A DNA stretch of 64,000 nucleotides from Thalassotalea sp. (GTDB lineage: Bacteria; Pseudomonadota; Gammaproteobacteria; Enterobacterales; Alteromonadaceae). The notes below the pieces were generated by a model. That model worked only from the letters and a program-made list of their open reading frames with translations, was not told the DNA's origin and ran no database searches. The stretch covers positions 1 through 64,000 of the forward strand of contig JAKVCY010000051.1 of the NCBI GenBank assembly GCA_022448425.1. The letters run 5' to 3'. Positions 137 to 29,033 of the stretch are shown here, one piece after another; the stretch's first letter is position 1; each line of letters opens with the position of its first letter. The translations under genes and the position numbers were made by a program.

Positions 137-2524
137 TTAAGTAGTTAAATCGTTTTGTAAATTCTTAATAGGTAGGTATTTCGCTAACGTAGATTGAATT
201 TGATCTTTTTCATAGGGTTTAGATAAATGTTCGTTCATCCCTATACTCAAGTAATTTTCTATCTCTTGTGTGGTTACATTTGCAGTAAGTGCAATAATAA
301 TCAACTCTTCTTTAGAGTGTGTTTCTCGAATAGCCTTTGTAGCTTCCATACCGTCCATCTTAGGCATTTGGATATCCATTAGTACCAACGGGTACGTATT
401 GCGTTCTACCATACTCACTGCTTGTATACCGTTTTCCGCTATATCTACGGCTAGCCCCAAGTCTTTCAAAATCACAGAAGCAATGGTTTGATTTATTTTG
501 TTGTCTTCAACAAGCAGTATTTTAGGTTTAACGTTTAATACAGTGTCAGCGTTCTCGTTTGCTTGGCCTGTATCAACAGGTTTGCTAATCTCAATTCGCT
601 CGATGTTCTTTGAACTGTCAGAACTGTTATTATCAATGCGGTCACTGGGCTCCAATAGTGCTCGCGTAAATGTGTGTATAGTTAGCGGTTTACTGACATA
701 GCGATAACTTAAGCTATGCTTTGATTGCTTGACTATATGCTCAGCACTAAATGCACTACAGATAATGATTTCGCCCACTTGATACTGATCTTTTTCGACT
801 TCAGAAATAAAAACGCCTCCGTTTTCTTCAGGCATGTGCCAGTCGAGTAGGACGAAGTCATAGTATCGATTAGCTACTTTCTCCAGCCCACTCCTTCCAT
901 TGTCACAAACTGTTATGGTGATCCCTAAATGCTCTGCCATTTTGGAGATTATTTGCTGCGTAATAGGGTTGTCTTCGATTAAAAGCAACGTCTTATTTTG
1001 CAACTGTTTGACCTTTGGTTGGTTTTGTGTGGTTTGTTCAGCTATTAGGAAAGGTAAAGAGAGTGTGAAGCAGGTGCCTATGTTTATAGTACTTGTAACT
1101 GTAATATCACCGCCCATTAAATTGGCTAACTTTTTGCTTATTACTAAGCCTAAACCTGTGCCTCCATATTTCCGTGATGTCGAGTCATCAGCTTGGCTAA
1201 ATCGTTGAAATAATCGGCCTCGTTGCTCCTCTGTAAGTCCTATTCCTGTATCAATTACCTTAAACTCAATGACATGTTTACCGTCACTTTGATTTTGCCT
1301 TAATACGCAAGACAGTATGACGTGACCTGATTCTGTAAATTTAATGGCATTGGATACTAGGTTTAATAAAATCTGACTTAATCTAACAGGATCACCAACG
1401 AGAGAACTTTCCAAGGCTGGATTTAGGTCAAAAATTAACTCTATACCTTTGTCCTCCGCCGGCTTACCAACAAGTACTGATAGGTTTTCAAAGACATCTG
1501 TAAGTTCAAAGTTAACGTGTTCAATATTGAACTTACCCGCCTCAATCTTAGAGAAGTCTAAAATATCATTGATAATGGTCAATAGTGAAGTCGCGGAAAA
1601 TTGCAGCTTATTTAGAAAGTCCCTTTGCTCCGTATTTAATTCAGTTTTTAAGCACAACTCAGTTAAGCCAATTATACCCGTCATAGGTGTTCTTATTTCA
1701 TGAGACATATTGGCAAGAAAACGACTCTTAACTTCGGCTGTATCACGATAAAGTTTGTTTTTTTCCTTGAGACGTAACTGCAGTTTCATCAAAACGACAA
1801 GCATTAGCGTTAGCAAGCTAACCAACATGACGAAGTAGCAAAATATCAGCTGTTTTTCATTGTGGTAAACGACACGACTAACTTCTTCTTTGGACAGGTT
1901 AACCTGTTCGTTAATGGGCAAATCCTTAAACGTTCTCTTGAGCTCTTCTGCTCGAATGCTGTTGTTTAAGATGAAATTGATATTTTGTTGATATAAGAGC
2001 CAATCGACATTTCTTAGATGTGCATTTTCTACTTCGTCGCTAATGGATTGAATAAGTCTTTCTATTTCAGCCTTTAGTTGCGGTTCTGGTCGATGAACAA
2101 ATTGAAATACCGCGTTGGAAAGTGTCAAAAAGTCTAATGCTAAATCTGAATGAATATCGGGTAAGTTGCTAAATGCAACCAGTCGTTGCGATGTTTGCAT
2201 CATAGTAGATAGCTGCATATAGTTGCTGGATACATCGTTGTACTCGGCAATTAATGGTCTAAGACTGCTATTTTCTGAAAGGGCTAAGGTATGATGGTCG
2301 ATCTCCAATTGCAGTTGTGCGTAAATGTCATAGTGTTCGTTAATATTACTACTACTATTCACCACCTCTGCCATATGTTTTGGGATGGTGTTTGCTAGTT
2401 TTGTAAAATTAGCTAACTGCTTAGATTTTTCATTTAAGTCAAAATGAAATTCTACAGCTAGGCAACTAACCAATATAAAGGTTATAAAACACGCTGCTTC
2501 CGGTAGAAACTTATTGATTCGCAT
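137..2524 (-). CDS. Hybrid sensor histidine kinase with two receiver domains
   Basis: This 795-residue inner-membrane protein has a transmembrane helix at about residues 8-27, a roughly 195-residue periplasmic helical sensor region, and a second helix at about 226-247. A HisKA domain follows, with phospho-acceptor H275 in MSHEIRTP. The HATPase domain shows the N-box near 384-400, DTGIGL at 425-430 and GGTGLGL at 454-460. Two receiver domains follow: REC1 around 511-623 (aspartate D561) and REC2 around 668-785 (D717 in [11 protein letters not shown]). No Hpt domain is seen, so the phosphorelay probably needs a separate Hpt protein. The gene overlaps the upstream cytochrome gene by 14 bases, so the two are translationally linked, and the sensor may follow a redox or periplasmic signal handled by that enzyme. 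The signal is an inference; the kinase assignment is firm. Confidence 0.93.
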
Positions 2525-3539
2525 GTTTCAGTAAATCCAAGGTTGGAGCTGAAAACCCTTGCAACAAGGCGACAAGGTCCGTTACGTCATCTTGACTTAG
2601 CTTTCTACCTAATTGCACTTCAGCCATAATCATAACGGCCTCTTCTAGCGAATTCACACTACCATTGTGAAAATACGGCGCAGTGTCGGCTATGTTTCTC
2701 AAGCTGGGGACTTTGAAAACAAATTTATCGTATTCTTGTTTAGTTACTATATATCGACCAAGATCGTCTTGAAGTGTGATTGGCGTTTCGTCGATTCTGC
2801 CCAATCTTTGGAAGATATTTCCACCGATGTTTCTACCTTGGTGGCACGTCACGCAGCCAAAACTAACAAATTTATCTAAACCTCTTATTTGTCGAGCATT
2901 GAGAGCCGTTTCATTGCCCAAAAGATATCTATCAATCGGGGCATTGGGCGTTATTAAGGATTCTTCGTATACCGTGATCGCTTTGACGATATCATTTGCA
3001 TTAATATCTGTTATCCCTAATTGCAAAAACGCCTCACTAAAGTAACTATCGGCGTTTATTTTAATTAACACTTGCGACCAGTTGGTACCCATCTCTACAG
3101 GGTTGTGTATTGGGCCATTAACTTGTTCCGCTAATGTTGACACGCTGCCGTCCCAAAACTGTCTAAAGTTGAAAACTGCATTGAGAACTGTGGGGGAATT
3201 TCTGAGCCCTTGGTGACTGTCGACTCCTGTAGACACGCTAAAGCCGTCATCACCACCATAATCAACTTGGTGGCAGGAAGCACAAGACACTGAGTTGTCT
3301 TTTGATAATAAAGGACTGTGAAAAAGAGCCTTACCTACAATAACCCAATCCTTGTCTATTTCTAGTTGAGTCGGTATAGGCTGGATAGGGTGATTGACCG
3401 TGATGAATTGGTAGCGGGTGTCAGTAAAAACACTTTCTTCTTGAGTAGTTTGCTGTGACAAATATAGAAAATAGCTTGCCGGTACTATGAGACATGCAAA
3501 AAAAGCAACGATTAACAACTGATAATAATGCTTAGGCAT
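2511..3539 (-). CDS. Di-haem cytochrome c peroxidase / MauG-family protein
   Basis: This 342-residue periplasmic protein has an N-terminal signal or anchor helix at about residues 8-28. Two CxxCH haem-binding motifs, CASCH at 86-90 and CVTCH at 229-233, have the spacing expected of the bacterial di-haem cytochrome c peroxidase/MauG family. The C-terminal [15 protein letters not shown] stretch is also typical. Classical members reduce hydrogen peroxide with electrons from c-type cytochromes; MauG-like members oxidise proteins. The sequence alone does not separate these. It is the first gene of a two-gene unit with the hybrid histidine kinase, an unusual partner, so it may generate or sense the kinase's signal. 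The N-terminal helix may anchor it in the membrane rather than be cleaved. Confidence 0.9.
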
Positions 3540-3670
3540 TCTATTCCTACTAATGCACCCTAACTAGTCTGAGTATAGACTAATTTTGTTATTATGAATA
3601 ATGCTAATAGCTTGATCTCATAATTGAATGACCGTATAAACATTACTCTGAAATTAAAAAGTGACTATGC

Positions 3671-4570
3671 ATGTCTTCTCGTAACCCTATTATTGCCGTA
3701 ACCGGTTCTTCAGGTGCAGGAACCTCAACCACGACTGAGTCATTTGAGCATATCTTTAGAACATTGGGTATCACCTCTGCAAAAGTCGAAGGTGATAGCT
3801 TTCACCGCTATTCCCGCCAAGAGATGGATTTGGAAAAGCGTAAGGCGAGCGAAGAGGGGAGAAACATCAGTTATTTTGGTGACCAAGCTAACGACTTCGA
3901 TGCTTTAGAAAAGCTCTTCAAGGACTATTCAGAGACAGGTAAGGGCAAGATGCGCAAGTATCTCCATACGTTCGATGAGGCTGTTCCTTACAATCAAATG
4001 CCGGGAACATTTACTCCTTGGGAAGATATCGGTGAAGGCACCGATTTACTCTTCTATGAAGGTCTTCATGGTGGTGTTAAAACTGAGAAAAACAACGTCT
4101 CTCAGCATGTAGATTTGCTGATAGGCATGGTACCCATTGTTAACCTCGAGTGGATTCAGAAGATAATCCGCGATACCAACCAGCGCGGCCATAGCCGTGA
4201 GGCTGTCACCCATAACATTGTCCGCTCTATGGATGACTACATTAACTTCATAACACCCCAGTTCTCTCGCACTCATGTTAACTTTCAACGCGTACCGACT
4301 GTTGACACGTCTAACCCGTTTAGTGCGAAAGCGATACCGACATTAGATGAAAGTTTCGTCGTTATTCGTTTTAGAGATTCGACACATGTTGATTTCCCGT
4401 ACTACCTTTCGATGATCGACGGTGCTTTTATGTCTCGTGTTAATACACTCGTCGTCCCAGGTGGGAAAATGGGCCTAGCAATGGAGCTCATACTAACGCC
4501 GTTAATTCGCGACTTAATGGATAAAAAAGCTGAGGCGAACAAGCAGCTTGATTGGATGTCTGATCTATAG
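3671..4570 (+). CDS. prkB: Phosphoribulokinase-like protein PrkB
   Basis: This 299-residue cytosolic kinase belongs to the P-loop uridine kinase/phosphoribulokinase family, with Walker A GSSGAGTS at residues 12-19. It closely resembles the E. coli PrkB type (about 289 residues) found in heterotrophs. Phosphoribulokinase phosphorylates ribulose 5-phosphate in the Calvin cycle, but no RuBisCO or other Calvin gene is visible here and the physiological substrate of heterotroph PrkB is not established. As in E. coli, a yhfA-like OsmC gene lies close by, which supports orthology. The metalloprotein gene that follows starts 11 bases downstream, suggesting co-transcription. Confidence 0.88.
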   Translation: MSSRNPIIAVTGSSGAGTSTTTESFEHIFRTLGITSAKVEGDSFHRYSRQEMDLEKRKASEEGRNISYFGDQANDFDALEKLFKDYSETGKGKMRKYLHTFDEAVPYNQMPGTFTPWEDIGEGTDLLFYEGLHGGVKTEKNNVSQHVDLLIGMVPIVNLEWIQKIIRDTNQRGHSREAVTHNIVRSMDDYINFITPQFSRTHVNFQRVPTVDTSNPFSAKAIPTLDESFVVIRFRDSTHVDFPYYLSMIDGAFMSRVNTLVVPGGKMGLAMELILTPLIRDLMDKKAEANKQLDWMSDL

Positions 4571-4581
4571 ATAGCGGCCTT

Positions 4582-5847
4582 ATGAGGAAGTGTTTACGTG
4601 TTAACTTATTCGTCAATTTTGTTATACCGCTTTGCCTCATAGTATATTCAGGCTTAGGTATCGCGAAAAATATTCTAATTACCGATATTGCTAAATCAGC
4701 TAGCAATGAATGGCAAGTTACTTATAAAAGTAAAGTTCCTATTCAGAGCCTTCAGTTTGCGATTACGCGCGACTTTTCTCGACATAACCGATGGACAATA
4801 GTCGAGCAAGGATTTGAGCTAAGCCAGCTTGCTGGTAAAGATAGCGTTTTTCGAAGAGATGGAACTGCTTTTACTGAGGTAACGTTCCGACTAACACCGA
4901 CCTATACCCATTTACCCAAATACTTCGCCCCTTTCTCCCCATTCTCAGAGGGATCTATGGTATTTCATAGTGCCAGATTTTTTGCTTGCGCCAATCTGTG
5001 TTTAAGTAACGAAAATACCTGGTACATCCGCGTAACTGTCCCCGATAGAGATACGATTCTTTTCTCAGGTAATGTCGTTAAGAATCAAGCGAGTTGGTAC
5101 GACAGTAACGACGGTACAAAAGTGTTCGTCGGGCAGTTAAAGCCGATACATAACAGTCACTTTAGTGCGGTCATAGATCCTGCGCTGCCGAGCGCTATTG
5201 TTGAGAACCTTAGTGTTTTTTTGCCAAAGGCGATGGAAGTACTCGCTAACCAATTAAAGGCGAACAGCAAACACCCAATACTTTTTGCGTCATTTGGGCC
5301 AACGGATGACGAGGAATATGGCCGTCAAGGTGGTGTACTGCCAAATCAAATATTCATGCATTGGTATGGCAAAATAACGCCAATTAACCAGTATGAATTA
5401 TTGTGGTTCTATGCTCATGAAGCAGTGCATGTATATCAAGACATTGCCGCTGCAAATATTGCCGAGAAAGATGCTTGGATTCATGAAGGCCATGCAGAGT
5501 ATTTAGCGAGTAAACTGCTGGAGCAATTCCTGCCAGAAAGTAAGTCTTATATCTTGTCGCGACTCAATCAGGCAGAGGCAGAGTGTCGAAAAATACTGGA
5601 AACTACATCATTGGATGTGCTTGCTGAGAACGGGGAGTATCAAGCCCTGTATTACTGTGGGTTGCAGTTTTATCAACTAGCGGAGCACTACAGTAAAGAT
5701 AAAGAGATAGGCTATAAATTATGGCAACACTTAGCCAGAGATAGGGGTATCGAACGTCAGATAGACGCTAAATCATTGCTTACAGTGTTAAGCAACTATA
5801 TTGATGACGAAGGTCTTGTCCGAATAAAAGCGGAATTGGGCATTTAG
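4582..5847 (+). CDS. Secreted M1-like (gluzincin) zinc metallopeptidase candidate
   Basis: This 421-residue protein has an N-terminal signal peptide (hydrophobic about residues 8-27, ending near GLGIAKN). The key feature is HEAVH at 279-283, followed by W299 and EGH at 302-304. HExxH with the third ligand E302 at 18 intervening residues, with the conserved W and EGH, matches the spacing of the M1 aminopeptidase/peptidase MA clan (for example leukotriene A4 hydrolase). The first 200 residues look like a beta-rich domain, as in M1/M61 proteins. I do not see the GxMEN exopeptidase motif, so an aminopeptidase role is uncertain; an endopeptidase or non-classical role is possible. It follows prkB by 11 bases with no clear Shine-Dalgarno sequence. 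Family placement is inferred from the active-site pattern only. Confidence 0.7.
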   Translation: MRKCLRVNLFVNFVIPLCLIVYSGLGIAKNILITDIAKSASNEWQVTYKSKVPIQSLQFAITRDFSRHNRWTIVEQGFELSQLAGKDSVFRRDGTAFTEVTFRLTPTYTHLPKYFAPFSPFSEGSMVFHSARFFACANLCLSNENTWYIRVTVPDRDTILFSGNVVKNQASWYDSNDGTKVFVGQLKPIHNSHFSAVIDPALPSAIVENLSVFLPKAMEVLANQLKANSKHPILFASFGPTDDEEYGRQGGVLPNQIFMHWYGKITPINQYELLWFYAHEAVHVYQDIAAANIAEKDAWIHEGHAEYLASKLLEQFLPESKSYILSRLNQAEAECRKILETTSLDVLAENGEYQALYYCGLQFYQLAEHYSKDKEIGYKLWQHLARDRGIERQIDAKSLLTVLSNYIDDEGLVRIKAELGI

Positions 5848-5863
5848 AAAAAAAGAAGCTTTG

Positions 5864-5901
5864 AACGTTAGCCAAGGCTTTTTTCAACCTTAGCTAACGT
5901 T
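5864..5901. terminator. Hairpin between convergent genes
   Basis: A 14-bp stem with one mismatch (AACGTTAGCCAAGG / CCTTAGCTAACGTT) and an 8-base loop separates the convergent metalloprotein and OsmC genes. On the minus strand it is followed by a T-rich stretch, so it should mainly terminate the OsmC transcript. Confidence 0.65.
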
Positions 5902-5920
5902 AGTGAAGTAGCGCTGTTAA

Positions 5921-6328
5921 TTACTCAGCTGCTACAACTTCAAAATCATGGGTAATATTAACGGCTTTATCTAACATTAGGGCTACAGAGCAGTACTTAT
6001 CTGCAGAAAGTGCCACTGCGCGCTCAACGTGCTTCTCAGCAACGTCGTAACCCGTAACGACAAAATGTAAATGAATGTCTGAAAAAACGCGTGGTACGCT
6101 GTCTACACGCGTTCCTGAAAGCTCCACACGACAAGCTGTGATCTTTTGTCTCGCTTTTTGCAAAATACTGACGACGTCGACAGAAGAGCAACCACCTAAA
6201 GACATTAAAACATTTTCCATTGGACTCGGGGCAGTCTCGCCACCATTAGCGTCCATCGCGACGCAGTGTCCGCTTTCTGATGTACCAAGGAAAAGTTCGT
6301 TATCTACCCACTTAACTGTTGCTTTCAT
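5921..6328 (-). CDS. yhfA: OsmC family protein, YhfA-like
   Basis: This 135-residue cytosolic protein has the OsmC/Ohr fold signature, with the two conserved cysteines C47 (in LGGCSSVDVV) and C113 (in DKYCSVALM). In Ohr/OsmC enzymes these reduce organic or inorganic hydroperoxides; the physiological role of the YhfA subgroup is unknown. Its length equals that of E. coli YhfA (134 residues). Position also supports orthology: in E. coli yhfA sits between prkB and crp near argD-pabA, and here the same set is found with crp missing. It is transcribed alone, convergent with the upstream metalloprotein. Confidence 0.85.
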   Translation of the reverse strand: MKATVKWVDNELFLGTSESGHCVAMDANGGETAPSPMENVLMSLGGCSSVDVVSILQKARQKITACRVELSGTRVDSVPRVFSDIHLHFVVTGYDVAEKHVERAVALSADKYCSVALMLDKAVNITHDFEVVAAE

Positions 6329-6407
6329 GTAATTACCACTAGTGTTAAATGACTATAGTGGCATGATTCTACAGTGTTATTTATGCCAGAAAAAGTGAGT
6401 TAGTGGT

Positions 6408-6755
6408 TTATTTAGGCAGGTTGTGAATTTCGGTATCGAATAGGTTTTTTATTAAGCCGGCAAACTCAACAATAAAAGTTTTCTGATCAGCGGTGACAGG
6501 GTTATTAACTACCGCAGACAGAATCTCTTCCAAGTCATAAACAATAGCGTCAACTTCACGAATGATCATGTTGCGTTGGTTAAATGTAAGCTCGTCATTT
6601 TGGCTACACACCAGTATGATTTGATCACTTAACTCTTGCTCTATCACTTCCATTACAGAATCGCCGCCCGAGGAAGTACCAGCATTCTCAAAAAGGTTAA
6701 GATGCTGCGTAAGGTATTCAATAATATGAACGTATCCGTCCGTATCTGTGACCAT
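6408..6755 (-). CDS. Conserved hypothetical protein, DUF3802-like
   Basis: This small 115-residue, acidic, probably all-helical cytosolic protein has no signal peptide or membrane segment. Its N-terminus (MVTDTDGYVHIIEYLTQHL) and length recall the DUF3802 family of Shewanella and relatives, which sits in this same neighbourhood near ast genes. The family has no known function. It is separated from the DUF1338 gene upstream by a strong terminator, so it has its own promoter. Family assignment is from memory of the pattern, so moderate. Confidence 0.7.
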   Translation of the reverse strand: MVTDTDGYVHIIEYLTQHLNLFENAGTSSGGDSVMEVIEQELSDQIILVCSQNDELTFNQRNMIIREVDAIVYDLEEILSAVVNNPVTADQKTFIVEFAGLIKNLFDTEIHNLPK

Positions 6756-6843
6756 GTCAATCCGCTATGTCGAGATGAGTTGAAGCATAACTTTACTCTG
6801 ATTATAGTAAATTTATCAAGTAGGTTAAGAAAATGCAGAAAAT

Positions 6844-6872
6844 AAAAAGCTCGCTAAAAAAGCGAGCTTTTT
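6844..6872 (-). terminator. Terminator of the ast operon
   Basis: A perfect 12-bp inverted repeat (AAAAAGCTCGCT / AGCGAGCTTTTT) with a 5-base loop follows the DUF1338 gene. A/T runs on both sides make it a classic factor-independent terminator for the minus-strand ast operon. Confidence 0.85.
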
Positions 6873-6894
6873 CGGATAAGTATGATGGCTTAAA

Positions 6895-7695
6895 TTAAGC
6901 AGCAGCGTTTGTGCTTTCAAAGATTTTGTCTGCTGAAGCAGCAACGAAACCTGTGTAAAGCTCACCATTTGCTAGCGGGTAACGCTTCGCAAACTCGTAG
7001 AAACAGCTTGGGATTTCAACAGTTTTGTCGCTAAATGCTACTGGCGCTTTATCAGCCATTGTTGAAGACTGCTCTAGCTTAACAGCTTTATCGCCTTTGA
7101 TTTCGCCACCAACGCTATTAAGTGCAAAACCACCCGCCTTAACAGCTTCGTTAACAGACTCAATAGTCTCATGGTTTTCAAGGTGGTTAATGCTCACTGT
7201 GAAGTGGTTTGCGCGGTAACCCCAAGCAGCCATCCAAGCGGCATATTCACTTTCTGCTAAAAGTGTTTTGTAGTCTTCAAAACTAACATCCCACTGCTTA
7301 CCAGAGTATAGGAAGTTGTCAGCAGTTACTGCTTCAGTCGGCAGTTGGTCTACTAATTTGTGAATGATCGCTTGTACTTCTGGTGAAAACTCTTCAACTA
7401 AAAGTTCACTAATGAAAACTTTTGGCTGAGTGCTGTCAGCATGCTCGAAATGCTTAGCATAAAGCTTCTTAGCTTCGAAGTGGTATTCACCACACTCTTT
7501 GTATCCAAGCTTAATTAGGTGAGCAGCGAGCTTCTCTAAATTAACTTTCTCGATGTTAAAAGTGCGGTAGGCAACGTGGTCGTTGATTACGTCATTACCT
7601 GAATCTAATAGCTGATGAACTTTGTCAGCAGAAGGTGTTACTTCTAGGTATTGTTGCCAAATGTGATTAAATAATTGTGTTACTTGCGTAGTCAT
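6895..7695 (-). CDS. DUF1338 family (2-oxoadipate dioxygenase/decarboxylase-like) protein
   Basis: This 266-residue cytosolic protein belongs to the DUF1338 family. The founding characterised member HglS is an Fe(II) enzyme that converts 2-oxoadipate to 2-hydroxyglutarate in lysine catabolism. Likely metal ligands are H40 (NDHVAYRTF), H164 (ANHFTVSI) and E234 (CFYEF), spaced like the two His and one Glu of the family. The protein is shorter than HglS, so the substrate may differ. It follows astD with a 248-base gap, and DUF1338 genes accompany ast genes in related bacteria, which suggests a role in amino-acid catabolism. Substrate is not predictable from the sequence. Confidence 0.8.
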   Translation of the reverse strand: MTTQVTQLFNHIWQQYLEVTPSADKVHQLLDSGNDVINDHVAYRTFNIEKVNLEKLAAHLIKLGYKECGEYHFEAKKLYAKHFEHADSTQPKVFISELLVEEFSPEVQAIIHKLVDQLPTEAVTADNFLYSGKQWDVSFEDYKTLLAESEYAAWMAAWGYRANHFTVSINHLENHETIESVNEAVKAGGFALNSVGGEIKGDKAVKLEQSSTMADKAPVAFSDKTVEIPSCFYEFAKRYPLANGELYTGFVAASADKIFESTNAAA

Positions 7696-7943
7696 AATAA
7701 TTCCTATTAATACAAAAAATAGAATTAGTAAGAGTTAACGGACGCTATACGCGGAGTAAATTGTAGACGACAGCATGCGCTAACCAGTCGTCAGAGATTA
7801 GATTTGATCGATGCTTTTGAAAAACGTTGGGCGAATGCCTAGCGTTTGTAGTTGATAATTAAGCTTCATGGGCGATATTTTAACCAATCGTATGCCTGTT
7901 TACTATAACTAAAACAAGCATACAAAAGATTAATCAAGATCAA

Positions 7944-9425
<1,482 letters not shown>

Positions 9426-9431
9426 TTAGCC

Positions 9432-10448
9432 TTAGTTTGCAACGATGCGAACCCAATCGCTTTCGTTGACCAATAGTGCATCTGCCACATCTTGAGTAAG
9501 CACTACCTGTTTTGCTGTTTCTCTGATCGATACGCTAGCTTGCGCTGCGCGGAAGCCTTTAATTTTGGTATTACAAACGATGTAGTTATTGCTTTCACTT
9601 ACATCACCGATAATCACTTGGTATCGTTCACTTTCTACAGCCGTACGAATACTCTTTATATTGGCTTCTACCGTTGGACCCGCATCAAATATGTCTACGT
9701 ATCCTTTGCGAGCAAAGCCTTCTGCTTCTAGCAGGCGCAACGCTGGTACCGTTTTGTCGTGAACTTTATTGATAACCGCTTGCGCATCTTTACTTAGTAA
9801 GTTCACGTAAATCGGGTATTTAGGCATTAGTTCAGCGATAAAAACCTTCTTACCAATACCAGTTAGGTAGTCCGCTGTAGGAAAGTCCATCGAGAAGAAG
9901 TGCTCTTCTAGCCACGCCCAGAACGGTGAGCGGCCATCGCTATCCGACACGCCGCGCATTTCAGCAATAACGGTATCTGAGAATCGCTCAGCATGTTCTG
10001 CAATAAACACAAAACGGAAGCGAGATAAGAAACGGCCGTTATTATTCTTGCGGTGAGATTCACCTAAGAATAAGGTGCAGATTTCCGTCGCACCAGTGTA
10101 GTCGTTACATAAAGATAAGGTTTCTACAGTGTTGTAAATACCTAGCTCGCGAGAGTTATGAACAACTTTACCTAAGTGGTAGTGATAAAACGCATCTTCT
10201 AGTCCAACGGCAGCTTCGATACCACTAGTACCGACAACTTTACCTGTTTCGGTATCTTCCATAACGAAAAGGTAACCTTCATCGCCTGGTTGGCTCACGT
10301 CTTTGTTAAACGAAGCTTCTGAGTGGTTAATGCGCTTTGTTAGTAGCTCCTCATTAACAGGAAGTGATGTAAAACCGTGTCCTGATTCGATAGCAATCTG
10401 GTGCAACGCATCATAATCGCTCGCTTGAATAGGGCGTATAATAATCAT
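9432..10448 (-). CDS. astA: Arginine N-succinyltransferase
   Basis: This 338-residue cytosolic protein resembles AstA/AruF throughout (N-terminal MIIIRPIQASDYDAL, central GESHRKNNNGRFLSR, FSMDFPTADYLTG, EAEGF). It transfers succinyl from succinyl-CoA to the alpha-amino group of arginine, committing arginine to the ammonia-producing AST route. It lies between astC (81-base gap holding a strong hairpin) and astD (18-base gap). Single-subunit architecture matches enterobacterial and Shewanella AstA. Confidence 0.95.
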   Translation of the reverse strand: MIIIRPIQASDYDALHQIAIESGHGFTSLPVNEELLTKRINHSEASFNKDVSQPGDEGYLFVMEDTETGKVVGTSGIEAAVGLEDAFYHYHLGKVVHNSRELGIYNTVETLSLCNDYTGATEICTLFLGESHRKNNNGRFLSRFRFVFIAEHAERFSDTVIAEMRGVSDSDGRSPFWAWLEEHFFSMDFPTADYLTGIGKKVFIAELMPKYPIYVNLLSKDAQAVINKVHDKTVPALRLLEAEGFARKGYVDIFDAGPTVEANIKSIRTAVESERYQVIIGDVSESNNYIVCNTKIKGFRAAQASVSIRETAKQVVLTQDVADALLVNESDWVRIVAN

Positions 10449-10484
10449 AAAACTTTCTCTGTGGATTGGCTTTGAGTGGTAGTC

Positions 10485-10510
10485 ACACTTGCCGCTTTAA
10501 CGGCAAGTGT
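10485..10510 (-). other. Intercistronic hairpin between astC and astA
   Basis: A perfect 10-bp inverted repeat (ACACTTGCCG / CGGCAAGTGT) with a 6-base loop fills most of the 81-base gap between astC and astA. There is no T-run after it on the minus strand, so it is more likely a 3'-end stabiliser or partial attenuator that lets astC be expressed above astA-astD than a full terminator. Confidence 0.6.
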
Positions 10511-10529
10511 TATCAAAATAGGCTAGTGT

Positions 10530-11744
10530 CTATTTTGCTACTTTAGCAACTGCTTTTTCGAAGCGAGCTAAACCTTCTGCAATATCTGCATCAGGGATGA
10601 TTAGAGATGGTGCAAAACGTACAATGCTCGCACCAGCAACTAGTGTCATTACACCTTCTTCCATTGCTGCAACTAAGAATTCTTTCGCTTTACCTTGGTA
10701 CTCGTCAGTTAATACAGCACCGATAAGTAAACCTTTACCACGTACTTCTTTAAATACGTTGTATTTCTCGTTAATTGCTTTTAAGCCATCGAAGTATAGT
10801 TGTTCTTTCGCTTTTACGCCGTCTAACACTGCTTTATCGTTAACTGTGTCAAAAGCGGCTTCAGCAACAGCACACGCTAATGGGTTACCACCGTATGTGC
10901 TGCCGTGAGTACCAATTTTTAGGTGCTTAGCAATGTCAGTTGTCGTGATCATTGCGCCGATAGGGAAACCACCACCTAACGCTTTCGCTGTTGTTAGAAT
11001 ATCTGGAGTAACGTTAAGACCCATGTAAGCGTATAACTCGCCTGTACGGCCAACACCTGTTTGTACTTCATCGAAAATCAATAAAGCGTTATGCTGGTTA
11101 CAAAGCTCGCGTACACCTTCAACAAATTCTTGCGTAGGAGATACGATACCACCTTCACCTTGAAGTGGTTCCATCATTACTGCACACGTGTTGTCAGAGA
11201 TAAGCTCTTTGAAAGAAGCTAAGTCGTTGTACTCAGCGTGAACAACATCACCTGGCTTAGGACCAAAACCATCTGAGTATGCCGTTTGACCACCAACAGT
11301 TACTGTGAAGAAAGTACGACCGTGGAAACCTTGCTTGAATGAGATGATTTGTGATTTGTGCTCACCAAAGTTATCTAATGCCCAACGACGCGCAAGTTTT
11401 AGCGCTGCTTCGTTTGATTCTGCACCAGAGTTTGCGAAGTAAACTTTGTCTGCAAACGTGCTGTCAGTCATTTTCTTTGCTAAACGCAATGCTGGCTCAT
11501 TTGTCATGACATTTGATAAATGCCAAATCTTTTCGCCTTGCTCTTTTAATGCGCTGACTAATGCTGGGTGACAGTGACCTAAACAGTTAACTGCGATACC
11601 ACCAGCGAAATCGATAAATTCTTTGCCTTCTTGATCCCATACTCGAGAGCCTTCACCGCGTACTGGGATAACTTTTGAAGGTGCGTAGTTTGGCACCATA
11701 ACATCATCAAATAACTCGCGGTTTACAGGAAAATGGTTCGACAT
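10530..11744 (-). CDS. astC: Acetylornithine/succinylornithine aminotransferase
   Basis: This 404-residue class-III PLP aminotransferase has the PLP lysine K254 in [12 protein letters not shown], and the [10 protein letters not shown] and [12 protein letters not shown] motifs. It can act on N-acetylornithine (arginine synthesis, ArgD) or N2-succinylornithine (AST catabolism, AstC); this family is often bifunctional. The operon with astA-astD suggests the catabolic use, while the neighbouring pabA recalls E. coli argD-pabA, so a dual role is likely. I start at 11744, not at an in-frame ATG 26 codons upstream, because an excellent AGAGGAG lies 6 bases before it. Candidate ArgR sites lie upstream. 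Confidence 0.93.
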
Positions 11745-11886
11745 TTTTGTCTCCTCTTTATGTGGGCTTGCCATCATTATTTTACAAAAAATAGACGAGC
11801 AGTATGGCAGAAAAGTAAGCAAATGTCTTGTTTGTATTTGATTCTAGCCCAGTAAATTCAAGGCTTGTAGCGTTTTATGCATGAAC

Positions 11887-11904
11887 AGTGAATAACTATT
11901 TTAA
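11887..11904. promoter_or_regulatory. Possible ArgR (ARG box) half-conserved site
   Basis: The sequence contains TGAATAACTATTTTA, which matches the left half and the AT-rich centre of the ARG-box consensus (TGAAT-4-ATTCA) but has a weak right half. It lies upstream of astC in the 294-base gap. ArgR is known to control ast genes in related bacteria. The match is partial. Confidence 0.3.
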
Positions 11905-11968
11905 CGCCACGTTTACAATAGAAGTGTGGACGGGCAAGGGCTGTAGCGGGAGTGGTTAATATCAGGCT

Positions 11969-11987
11969 TTATGAACATTCTTCATAA
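11969..11987. promoter_or_regulatory. Palindrome upstream of astC (possible regulator site)
   Basis: A perfect 7-bp palindrome with a 5-base spacer, TTATGAA-cattc-TTCATAA, lies between the HDOD gene and astC. Its TGAA/TTCA half-sites and size fit an ArgR-like operator, but it could bind another dimeric regulator. Confidence 0.35.
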
Positions 11988-12038
11988 CTAATCAAAAAAA
12001 ATTATGAGATAAGGGCTGAAGGTAAAATGATTAAATTC

Positions 12039-13184
12039 TTAGCTGAAGTTGAGTTTTATGTGGTCAATATCACTTTTTTTCAGTAATGCCGCATCTGCAG
12101 CAGTGATTTTAGCTGAAGAAAGCAATAGCTTAGCTTCATCGTTATTGATGAGCTCTTCTTTTGCTAGGCTGCGAAACACAACATAAGCTCGCGCTTTGGC
12201 AACTAACTGCGCGATATCAGTCATTTTCTTTGGATCGTTAACAAAAGCTAAATCAAATAGTGGCTCGGTTATACGCAAACGATCAAAGTTCATTTGCTCA
12301 ACAAGGTCGGTACCTATTTGATTGCTGCGCGTGCACAATTGCTCGAGAAGTAAGTCTGGCGAGCTTTCTACAAGTAGCAATGCGTCATGTAAACGCTTGT
12401 CACGTTTATCGTAAGCGTCACGTACTTCGCGGTTATACACTTCATTGTGTTTGTTTACGAAGCAGCGGACGACAGCCAATAAACCAATATTTGATAGCAT
12501 GCCTGCGGTAAAAGCGGTGTACCAATCGCTGTCTTGTGCTTGCGCTAATGCTTTAGCCGCAAGCGCAACAGATAAACTATCGTTCCACAGTTTACGCTTC
12601 ATTAATGAGAATGGGGCAGTACTGTGTGGCAACCAATGCTTTAGAATATAGGTTGGCATTACTAGCTTGAGGTTTTCTAAACCAATGTAGTTAATTGCTA
12701 AGCTTGGATCTGACATCTTAACATCTGCACGTTTGCGATACTGTGGTTTATTCACCAGATTAACCACATCATCTGATAGCCATACTAAGCTTTTGACGAG
12801 CGGCGTAATGCGGTTAAGAGATGTCGCGCGTAATGACAATATTTCGAGAATTGCAGGCGCTGTATCTTCAATACTGAGGAAGTGCTGAAAAAAGTGCTCT
12901 TTGTTGTCGAATTCGTTATTTATTTCAATACTGACACGGGCAAAAAACTGATGCATAACTTGCTTTTGAAAGTGCTGCTCACCGTGTTCTTTGATCAATT
13001 TTTCTTGATTAGTTCGCTCTTCTACTGCCAGAAGTTCTCGACGACGATTCGCTTGCTCACTATCTTGCTGCGTAACAAACTTCACAGCACCAGTTTGCTG
13101 TTGTGCAAACTCTTTGCTGATAACTAGGCTGATATAGCTCTGATAGAGAGACCAAGTTGTGTCGTTTTGTTCAAAAAGTAGCAT
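12039..13184 (-). CDS. HDOD domain protein
   Basis: This 381-residue cytosolic protein has a roughly 100-residue N-terminal, charged, coiled-coil-prone region. An HDOD domain occupies about residues 100-320, recognised by the pattern DPSLAINYIGLENLK...AFTAGMLSNIGLLAV. HDOD domains are HD-related but usually lack catalytic metal ligands, and serve in signalling, cell-cycle and c-di-GMP-linked pathways. No output domain is visible. It sits between pabA and astC on the same strand; the link to arginine metabolism is positional only. Confidence 0.8.
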   Translation of the reverse strand: MLLFEQNDTTWSLYQSYISLVISKEFAQQQTGAVKFVTQQDSEQANRRRELLAVEERTNQEKLIKEHGEQHFQKQVMHQFFARVSIEINNEFDNKEHFFQHFLSIEDTAPAILEILSLRATSLNRITPLVKSLVWLSDDVVNLVNKPQYRKRADVKMSDPSLAINYIGLENLKLVMPTYILKHWLPHSTAPFSLMKRKLWNDSLSVALAAKALAQAQDSDWYTAFTAGMLSNIGLLAVVRCFVNKHNEVYNREVRDAYDKRDKRLHDALLLVESSPDLLLEQLCTRSNQIGTDLVEQMNFDRLRITEPLFDLAFVNDPKKMTDIAQLVAKARAYVVFRSLAKEELINNDEAKLLLSSAKITAADAALLKKSDIDHIKLNFS

Positions 13185-27974: not shown

Positions 27975-28187
27975 AGACTGGGCTATTATAACGTTTTTTT
28001 AACAATCTTCTATGGGCCCCTTTGGTACCTATAGTTGGTACATATAGGTAAGCGAAAACTCAATTAGCGGTGAACTTTATAATTATTATCTAGCAACACG
28101 CTAGCGATAGCACAATATTAGCCGCGTTAAATTGGCATTGCTTTTTAAGTGGGCAATTTAACGGGAATATTAATGTTAATTTCTTAT

Positions 28188-28216
28188 TTGACAGCACCAA
28201 ATTAATACACTACACC
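28188..28216 (+). promoter_or_regulatory. Candidate sigma-70 promoter
   Basis: TTGACA is followed by a 17-base spacer and TACACC. The -35 is perfect and the -10 weak. It would make a roughly 440-base leader before the peptide ORF, which is long, so a promoter nearer the gene is also likely. Confidence 0.3.
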
Positions 28217-28393
28217 TACACTAATTCAAGGATGAATAGTGAAGTCAGTTTATAAACTCGGCTTCGCGGATTGAAAGGAAGCGTTTCCCTTCAAACGTGC
28301 ACTCCTTAAGCTACTTGTCAAATGACACCCGTTATCGTTTCTGGTGTTAGAAACTTAGCAGCAAGGATACATAACAAATAACACAGACCTCCT

Positions 28394-28428
28394 CGACAAC
28401 TCTTAATGATCATTAAGGGTCGTGTCGT
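28394..28428. other. Palindromic hairpin in peptide-gene leader
   Basis: CTTAATGATCATTAAG is a perfect 16-bp palindrome at 28402-28417, extended on both sides by further pairing (CGAC...GTCG). It is followed by AATAAAAATTTTT. It could be a terminator-like attenuator of the leader or a transcription-factor site. Confidence 0.5.
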
Positions 28429-28613
28429 CACAATAAAAATTTTTAGCAGTCAATCTGTTATCAAGTATTCAATGAAGGAATTTTTCTGGCACGGTAATAG
28501 TTAAAAGCCTTGTTAGGGAATAGCGCTGCTGACTTTAGTCAACTTTAGCGAGGATAAGTAAAGCCAGCCTTATTAACAGCTCATTATCATGTGATATTGA
28601 GCAAATTAACTAC

Positions 28614-28641
28614 CCGACTGACTATAACAAAGAACAGTCGG
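28614..28641 (+). other. Hairpin at the translation start of the peptide gene
   Basis: The arms CCGACTG and CAGTCGG pair perfectly across a 14-base loop that contains AACAAAGAA, the only Shine-Dalgarno-like stretch before the peptide starts (28646 or 28661). It may limit translation of the toxin gene. Confidence 0.4.
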
Positions 28642-28660
28642 ATACATGGTGTATAACATT

Positions 28661-28855
28661 ATGCGTGAATTAAACGTAAATGACATTGAACAAGTACATG
28701 GTGGAATGATAGTAGGAGAAGGGATAGCAGCTGTCGGTGGCGTAATAGGAATTGCTGCCGCTGCTCCGATTATTGGTACAGTGGCAACAATTGCTGGCCT
28801 TGGGGGTATGATCGGTATAGCTGTAATGGATATAGTTGATACGCTAACTAAGTAG
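28661..28855 (+). CDS. Class II bacteriocin/microcin-like peptide precursor with GG leader
   Basis: This 64-residue precursor begins MRELNVNDIEQVHGG, a textbook double-glycine leader: L at -12, D at -8, I at -7, V at -4, GG at -2/-1. Cleavage after GG would release a 49-residue peptide rich in Gly, Ala, Ile and Val, with GxxxG-like spacings and no cysteine. This is typical of membrane-active unmodified class II bacteriocins. An in-frame ATG at 28646 would add five residues ahead of the leader; I prefer 28661 because the leader then has standard length. A small membrane protein with a strong ribosome site follows 19 bases later, as expected of an immunity gene. No C39 peptidase/ABC exporter is in the window. 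Activity is inferred. Confidence 0.72.
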   Translation: MRELNVNDIEQVHGGMIVGEGIAAVGGVIGIAAAAPIIGTVATIAGLGGMIGIAVMDIVDTLTK

Positions 28856-28874
28856 TTAATAAAAGGAATCTCTT

Positions 28875-29033
28875 ATGAATGATTTGACAGTTGTAGGGCT
28901 TATTATTGCTGCTCTCTTCTTCTTTATAGCTAGTGTTATAGATGGGCACTTTAACTTTCAATTTTTTAGTGTTGCTATTTTGCTAACTATAGTAGCGATA
29001 GTTTATTTTTATAAAATAAAAAACACTAAGTGA
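28875..29033 (+). CDS. Small two-helix membrane protein, candidate immunity protein
   Basis: This ORF of 52 codons starts MNDLTVVG and ends YKIKNTK. AAGGAA precedes it at a spacing of 6 bases, a strong ribosome binding site. Two predicted membrane helices lie at about residues 4-22 and 29-46, with a basic tail. It lies 19 bases after the bacteriocin-like gene on the same strand and is more AT-rich than its neighbours. Bacteriocin immunity proteins are often small membrane proteins encoded just after the peptide; no conserved family is recognised. The role is inference from position. Confidence 0.65.
   Translation: MNDLTVVGLIIAALFFFIASVIDGHFNFQFFSVAILLTIVAIVYFYKIKNTK

Follow-up and report, generated by a model that had tools for sequence, protein, structure and literature searches.

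Class II microcins have a five-part definition in those parts of PMC9746304 and PMC10233263 that bear on it; the points drawn from it here are a precursor with a GG/GA signal, an adjacent cognate transmembrane immunity protein of 51 to 216 amino acids, a C39 exporter in the genome, an HlyD adaptor together with TolC, an exporter close to the precursor, and secreted antibacterial activity. According to the same parts of PMC10233263 (2022), the 15 functionally confirmed microcins all stem from Enterobacteriaceae. A marine precedent is the bacteriocin locus on pAWOD920 of Aliivibrio wodanis, for which the relevant part of PMC4462113 gives the leader motif M(R/K)ELX3E(I/L)X2(I/V)XG(G/A), HlyD and C39 genes, and a CAAX-protease gene. 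The megaplasmid of Shewanella oneidensis MR-1 also carries "bacteriocin-like peptide" genes, with GS/GG-type precursors beside C39 and HlyD genes. The portion of PMC11494933 considered here does not mention Alteromonadales, Pseudoalteromonas, or Vibrio.

We analyzed a 64,000-nucleotide stretch of a Thalassotalea sp. contig (the window), in which a double-glycine precursor gene (ORF1) and a gene for a small membrane protein (ORF2) follow a multi-hairpin element at 28473-28660 that ends directly at the ORF1 start codon. The element is absent from an earlier note made from the letters of this DNA alone. That note had proposed the layout of a class II bacteriocin plus immunity gene, which is upheld by conservation of the pair and by exporters encoded in the genome, but the exporter is not adjacent. 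We consider it likely that the locus is a stand-alone unit of class II microcin type under a structured, so far undescribed mRNA leader. Its features are as follows.

28164-28447, + strand: upstream block with 70% identity to another stand-alone GG-peptide locus, in sister genome G002 (L069:8064-8368)
28482-28520, + strand: hairpin P0, TTTTTCTGGC...GTTAGGGAA type, the least constant part of the element
28525-28660, + strand: P1 to P3 plus the ribosome-binding region, a covariance-model match whose last base directly precedes the start codon
28528-28568, + strand: hairpin P1, a covarying helix with arms 28528-28539/28557-28568 and apical loop AACTTTAGCGAG
28579-28602, + strand: hairpin P2, GCTCATTATC...GATATTGAGC, a covarying helix
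28614-28641, + strand: hairpin P3, CCGACTG...CAGTCGG, a covarying helix and inverted repeat just before the ribosome site
28661-28855, + strand: ORF1, double-glycine precursor of class II microcin type, 64 aa, 15-residue leader plus 49-residue core
28875-29033, + strand: ORF2, putative cognate immunity protein, 52 codons, two hydrophobic segments

As far as MccV/CvaC-type class II microcins are described in the sources above, the unit resembles them in its GG leader, its small adjacent membrane protein, its cysteine-free core, and a source genome that also encodes a C39 exporter, an HlyD adaptor, and TolC-like proteins; it differs in its unlinked exporter, its below-cut-off match to the MccV model, and its marine Alteromonadales host. 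Set against these points, ORF1 carries the GG signal, and ORF2, the putative immunity protein, is adjacent, 52 amino acids long with two hydrophobic segments, and co-conserved with ORF1, with one homologue standing alone in Pseudoalteromonas sp. NC201. The source genome encodes C39 exporters, HlyD-type adaptors in both exporter loci, and proteins matching the OEP domain, and an exporter close to the precursor is lacking there but is found beside the homologous pair of genome G007. The leader motif, marine host, and HlyD and C39 genes given for pAWOD920 in that part of PMC4462113 are of the same type, and its CAAX-protease gene has counterparts in G007 and in the exporter cluster on contig C46 of the source genome. 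With the class IIb bacteriocins lactobin A/cerein 7B (TIGR03949), ORF1 has in common a GG leader and weak similarity but, unlike them, no second GG peptide beside it.

Precursor, small membrane protein, and their conservation

The 64-residue GG-leader precursor with a cysteine-free 49-residue core, as first noted, is borne out by the ORF translation and motif positions. The leader, MRELNVNDIEQVHGG, precedes a core that starts with MIVGEG and, by eye, ends in MDIVDTLTK, and L-12, D-8, I-7, V-4, G-2, and G-1 all fit the double-glycine rule. The core has a mass of 4.56 kDa, a pI of 4.05, and a GRAVY of 1.57, and the Gly/Ser-rich C-terminal modification region of class IIb (siderophore) microcins is absent from it by eye. 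The start at 28646 given earlier does correspond to an in-frame ATG (MVYNI-MREL...), but 28661 is the likelier start because GGAG lies at a matching distance in relatives and the upstream ATG is missing in some of them. The Shine-Dalgarno sequence of the window is GGTG (28648-28651), weaker than the GGAG of the relatives.

A strict leader pattern occurred once in the window and never in 20 mononucleotide shuffles, and a looser one occurred twice, against once in all 20 shuffles together. Relative to homologues in other genera, pS/pN was 0.66/0.26 and 0.80/0.21 for ORF1 and 0.60/0.25, 0.92/0.39, and 0.64/0.38 for ORF2. Both ORFs thus go beyond chance, since the leader pattern beats the shuffles and homologues elsewhere show more synonymous than nonsynonymous difference. 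No Pfam or NCBIfam model matched either ORF over its cut-off; the nearest microcin model to ORF1 was MccV (E 0.044, below cut-off), and TIGR03949 reached E 7.3, also below cut-off. Among 196 related genomes, ORF1 had matches at E <= 0.1 in 24, its own genome counted, of which the best foreign one, from G007, reached E 1.1e-15 with 54% identity across residues 1-63 and the remaining foreign ones stood at E 1.5e-4 or weaker. Peptide patterns scanned in genome_contigs matched 595 stretches, none of which was confirmed as an ORF1 relative. Once exported, the hydrophobic, glycine-rich 49-residue core would probably have the inner membrane of related bacteria as its target.

ORF2 begins 19 bases behind the ORF1 stop, and its two computed hydrophobic stretches agree with the two-helix type to which this 52-codon gene had been assigned. 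Lack of conservation had been named as a refuting point; instead, homologous pairs occur in two other genera, in genomes G007 and G837. The order in G007 is HlyD-type adaptor (assigned by sequence and motif), element, precursor, 52-aa ORF2, CAAX protease, and C39 exporter. The ORF1 core aligned with its G007 counterpart at a score of 121 (maximum of 67 when shuffled) and ORF2 with its own at 76 (maximum of 57 in 20,000 shuffles). An ORF2 profile built from three proteins (window, G007, and NC201) was run against 395 genomes of the family; the top three matches (1.5e-28, 1.0e-27, and 1.5e-27) were its own rows, one of them in G709 at the coordinates of NC201, the only clear new match was in G837 (1e-7), and the next stood at 2.6e-4. 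We judge the 62 genomes of the 395 that fell within a loose limit of 0.1 to be mostly chance. The G837 match is an intact 51-aa ORF, with an aligned stretch running past its stop codon, and is preceded by an adaptor end, an element (R2 model, 85.7 bits), and a precursor in which 38 of 64 residues are identical to ORF1; G837 lies outside the 196 genomes searched with ORF1.

The ORF2 homologue of NC201 stands alone. The ORF list for the surrounding 3 kb showed us no GG precursor, R2 recognized no element in the 10 kb fetched, and the DNA of 28473-29033, which had no match to phages, matched plasmids only at this homologue. An orphan immunity gene would be expected to look like this, and the lone gene fits the putative immunity role of ORF2, which would probably protect the producer.

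Sister genome G002 has a right flank 95% identical to that of the window and a solute-binding-type gene in common with it, but at the place of the pair it has a 1226-aa Reg_prop-GGDEF-EAL gene (L066:2945-6625), a neighbor that the solute-binding-type gene lacks in the window, and no GG pair. The ORF2 profile found no convincing ORF2 in the six other genomes of the genus; the match in G003 spans 17 residues at E 0.05. The unit is therefore a species- or strain-specific insertion or replacement, as the G002 site differs and the genus is otherwise without a convincing ORF2. The upstream block at 28164-28447 is present in 2 of 196 genomes, its own counted, and is apparently noncoding; it contains a TTGACA box and, toward its end, a long hairpin, and 28212-28450 folds at z -1.96. 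No promoter on the + strand passed a consensus scan. The block may be a common promoter and transcript start or a small RNA or leader.

Export machinery and other precursors in the genome

The window had been said to hold no C39 exporter, and both C39 matches of the genome indeed lie on other contigs. The genome-wide search for C39 exporters and HlyD partners that had been proposed found two C39-peptidase ABC exporters, on C194 and C46, each with an HlyD-type adaptor nearby and with the C39 motif residues (Cys, His, and Asp) visible by eye. Absence of such an exporter had been the other refuting point named, and it does not apply to this genome. Ten OEP-domain matches mark TolC-like proteins on other contigs. 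Six further GG precursors are encoded on C46; C194 adds two, whose leaders are of the MREL/MKEL type, and a single GA precursor lies on the small contig C149. One C46 precursor has the leader MRELNLNEIEQVNGG, identical to that of the window in 12 of 15 residues, and because the C46 cluster holds this leader, its exporter is the one most likely to serve ORF1. Together with the adaptor and TolC, all encoded elsewhere, a C39 exporter would read and cut the GG leader and export the core, and it is plausible that one exporter handles many leaders, those of distant units included. One C46 precursor matched TIGR03949 at E 0.0029, below cut-off.

The C46 array (L003, G000:C46:20001-40000) spans 1904-12941 and comprises the six GG precursors, interspersed with small proteins, a CAAX protease, a C39 exporter, and an adaptor; it contains repeats at about 1.66-kb spacing with pieces 82 to 95% identical, as after tandem duplication. 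A partial cca-type gene, in which only the RNA-binding domain was found, lies on one side of the exporter genes (L003:6970-7905), and a complete cca-type gene lies on the other side of the cluster, followed by two integrase-type genes (one below the Pfam cut-off) with a 602-aa gene between them (L003:13099-19782). This arrangement may reflect insertion of the exporter cluster as an island at cca. On C194, the C39 exporter is accompanied by a radical SAM/SPASM protein (L004:10034-11740 of G000:C194; nif11-class maturase 3 model, 606.7 bits, cut-off 725) and a 59-aa GG-type peptide with two cysteines, possibly a modified-peptide system.

The structured element and its distribution

The DNA before ORF1 resembles, without recourse to any model, the DNA before other GG genes in its own genome, G004, and G007, the longer matches being 69 to 76% identical. 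The window stretch 28473-28660 has a fold z of -2.40. The P0 stretch reaches a fold z of <= -2 in 12 of 32 loci and only -0.4 in the window, and the window copy of P1 contains two mismatches. The window element scored 131.7 bits with covariance model R1 and 121.7 bits with R2, having itself trained both models. In a sequence-only alignment of 11 sequences (A1), 87.0% of cells were paired (75.5+-1.3 shuffled), 16 of 30 pairs had changed on both sides (9.1+-1.6 shuffled), and the covariation score was 0.398, against 0.199+-0.021 for shuffles and 0.045 to 0.113 for slid controls. A larger alignment has 35 distinct rows, among them a probably false match on the reverse strand; in it both sides change in 27 of 30 pairs, although this alignment leans toward the structure because it was fitted to it. 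Kinship alone can lift values above such shuffles, but double changes across genera in all three helices are hard to account for in another way. Linker and loop sequences are partly conserved as well.

Rfam 15 gave no match over the gathering score in eight loci with the element and nothing at E <= 1 on the window element itself. A CRISPR-DR27 match inside ORF2 (E 0.91) was judged to be chance, and four matches in L069 were all far below threshold.

Of the 196 related genomes, 17 contained R1 matches at E <= 0.01, 36 in all with the window counted, and 11 of these matches had built the model. All but one (35/36) stand directly before a GG/GA-type precursor sequence, L105 being the match without a precursor; the precursor behind the match has an unusually long leader in L104, and its start codon position reads ATA in L085. 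In 28 of the 30 fetched loci, the start of a GG-type precursor lies no more than 3 bases from the match end, and six matches beyond these loci also precede precursors. Eight matches fell at places found by no peptide or DNA search (G081, G041:1335940, G045:C206, G045:C196, G120, G062:6179, and two in G052), and seven of the eight precede a precursor, the exception being G045:C196.

A separate scan of genome_contigs (84,980 species) with an exact P1 DNA pattern, itself taken from these elements, gave 19 matches in 18 loci, partly at the same places as R1. All were in Gammaproteobacteria, mostly named Alteromonadales: Pseudoalteromonas (5 loci), Psychrosphaera (4), Colwellia (3), Thalassotalea (2), an Alteromonadaceae MAG (2), a Gammaproteobacteria MAG (1), and a record labelled Endozoicomonas (1). 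A precursor lies 53 to 103 nt behind the match in all 18 testable cases, the 19th being cut by the locus end. With stricter filters, under which weak matches are lost, R2 matched in 2 of the 369 genomes searched from the class, which both belong to the family, and in 6 of the 394 searched from the order, namely G120 and five members of the family; the element thus appears rare outside the family.

Among known systems, R2 was run on one Shewanella and three Vibrio/Aliivibrio exporter loci and gave two weak matches (21 bits; 10 bits, E 3). The former, the sole match in the MR-1 locus (E 0.019), lies inside the HlyD gene. Strong hairpins do precede two annotated bacteriocin-like genes on the MR-1 megaplasmid (L158:8470-8600, fold z -4.42), where the loop GACUUUAGCC is reminiscent, by eye only, of the P1 loop; this stretch, which R2 does not recognize, may be a diverged relative. 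Another exporter locus on the pAWOD920 plasmid (L159), distinct from the locus of PMC4462113, has no element by R2. The term "untranslated" is absent from PMC10233263 and "promoter" from PMC9746304, so no such leader is discussed there under those words. In the mostly nonsubscription literature covered, we found no description of a structured leader of microcin or bacteriocin genes in Alteromonadales, and the element is apparently so far undescribed.

Possible roles of the element and the unit

If transcribed, 28473-28660 would form a folded 5' mRNA leader that sets precursor expression through processing, stability, translation, or a switch controlled by a ligand, protein, or small RNA. An mRNA leader is favored because the end of the element is fixed at the start codon and structure is kept over sequence. 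Keeping the ribosome site open is a weak candidate for its function: across 30 loci, predicted accessibility averaged 0.53 with the leader, 0.45 with shuffled leaders, and 0.49 with no leader, and in 25 of the 30 the site was predicted to be more accessible than behind shuffled leaders (Wilcoxon p 1e-4; the loci are related), but the window goes the opposite way (0.23 with the leader, 0.31 shuffled). The leader therefore opens the site little if at all, given how close the no-leader mean is. Codon conservation of the leader peptide was set aside as evidence, since AT-rich codon preference could explain it.

The hairpins could instead be generic intercistronic processing or stability structures left over from an exporter operon, with no dedicated regulation. 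An adaptor-end motif does lie within 300 nt upstream of 15 of the 32 elements examined. However, the same helices are kept in the 17 elements, the window's included, near which it was not found (for L083, 287 nt only were available), so that the element goes with precursors rather than with the exporter alone; the partly conserved linkers and loops also speak against generic hairpins. A C39 match is present in all 17 genomes with the element and in 124 of 196 overall. We regard a leftover of this kind as possible but lean against it.

It is improbable that the element acts as DNA, as a recombination site or operator that spreads peptide cassettes. The units are dispersed, the C46 array has 1.66-kb repeats and integrase-type genes beside it, and the balance of G-U to A-C mismatches (58 to 56 in alignment A2, 24 to 13 in A1) favors neither folding strand. 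Against this, the precursor start is fixed to the match end in one orientation in the 28 of 30 fetched loci, the arm sequences change while pairing is kept, unlike in a protein operator, and the window has one match only, so that the 3' side of the unit carries none.

GG leaders and C39 exporters are also used by signaling peptides, and one C46 precursor weakly matched a peptide pheromone model, far below cut-off (15.5 bits, cut-off 85, E 0.015). ORF1 could accordingly specify a signaling peptide and ORF2 an accessory or receptor-like protein rather than an immunity protein. We think this unlikely in view of the many diverse cores on one leader type within a single genome, the hydrophobic, glycine-rich ORF1 core with a small membrane protein behind it, and the lone ORF2 homologue in NC201, close to which we saw no precursor. 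Equally unlikely is a stranded, silent remnant that is no longer expressed, as might be suspected from the distant exporters, the GGTG ribosome site with its low predicted accessibility, and the want of a promoter passing the scan, in that neither the ORFs nor the element are disrupted and conservation of the upstream block extends to a second locus.

We thus retain the structured mRNA leader as the preferred reading. A leader common to dispersed precursor genes means that scattered units may be expressed together, and we are evenly divided on whether the element represents a new structured-leader family that is confined to mRNAs for double-glycine microcin-type precursors in marine Alteromonadales and places many dispersed toxin-immunity units under common posttranscriptional control matched to a shared exporter. 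Were it a regulatory RNA, it would amount to dedicated RNA control of microcin precursors, of which we found no description in the literature covered. The element offers a second handle for finding such units, as shown by the places reached by the RNA model alone, and related peptide genes elsewhere among marine bacteria carry it too. The many cores of this marine set, the small membrane proteins paired with them, and a lone gene of immunity type make predictions of producers and targets testable.
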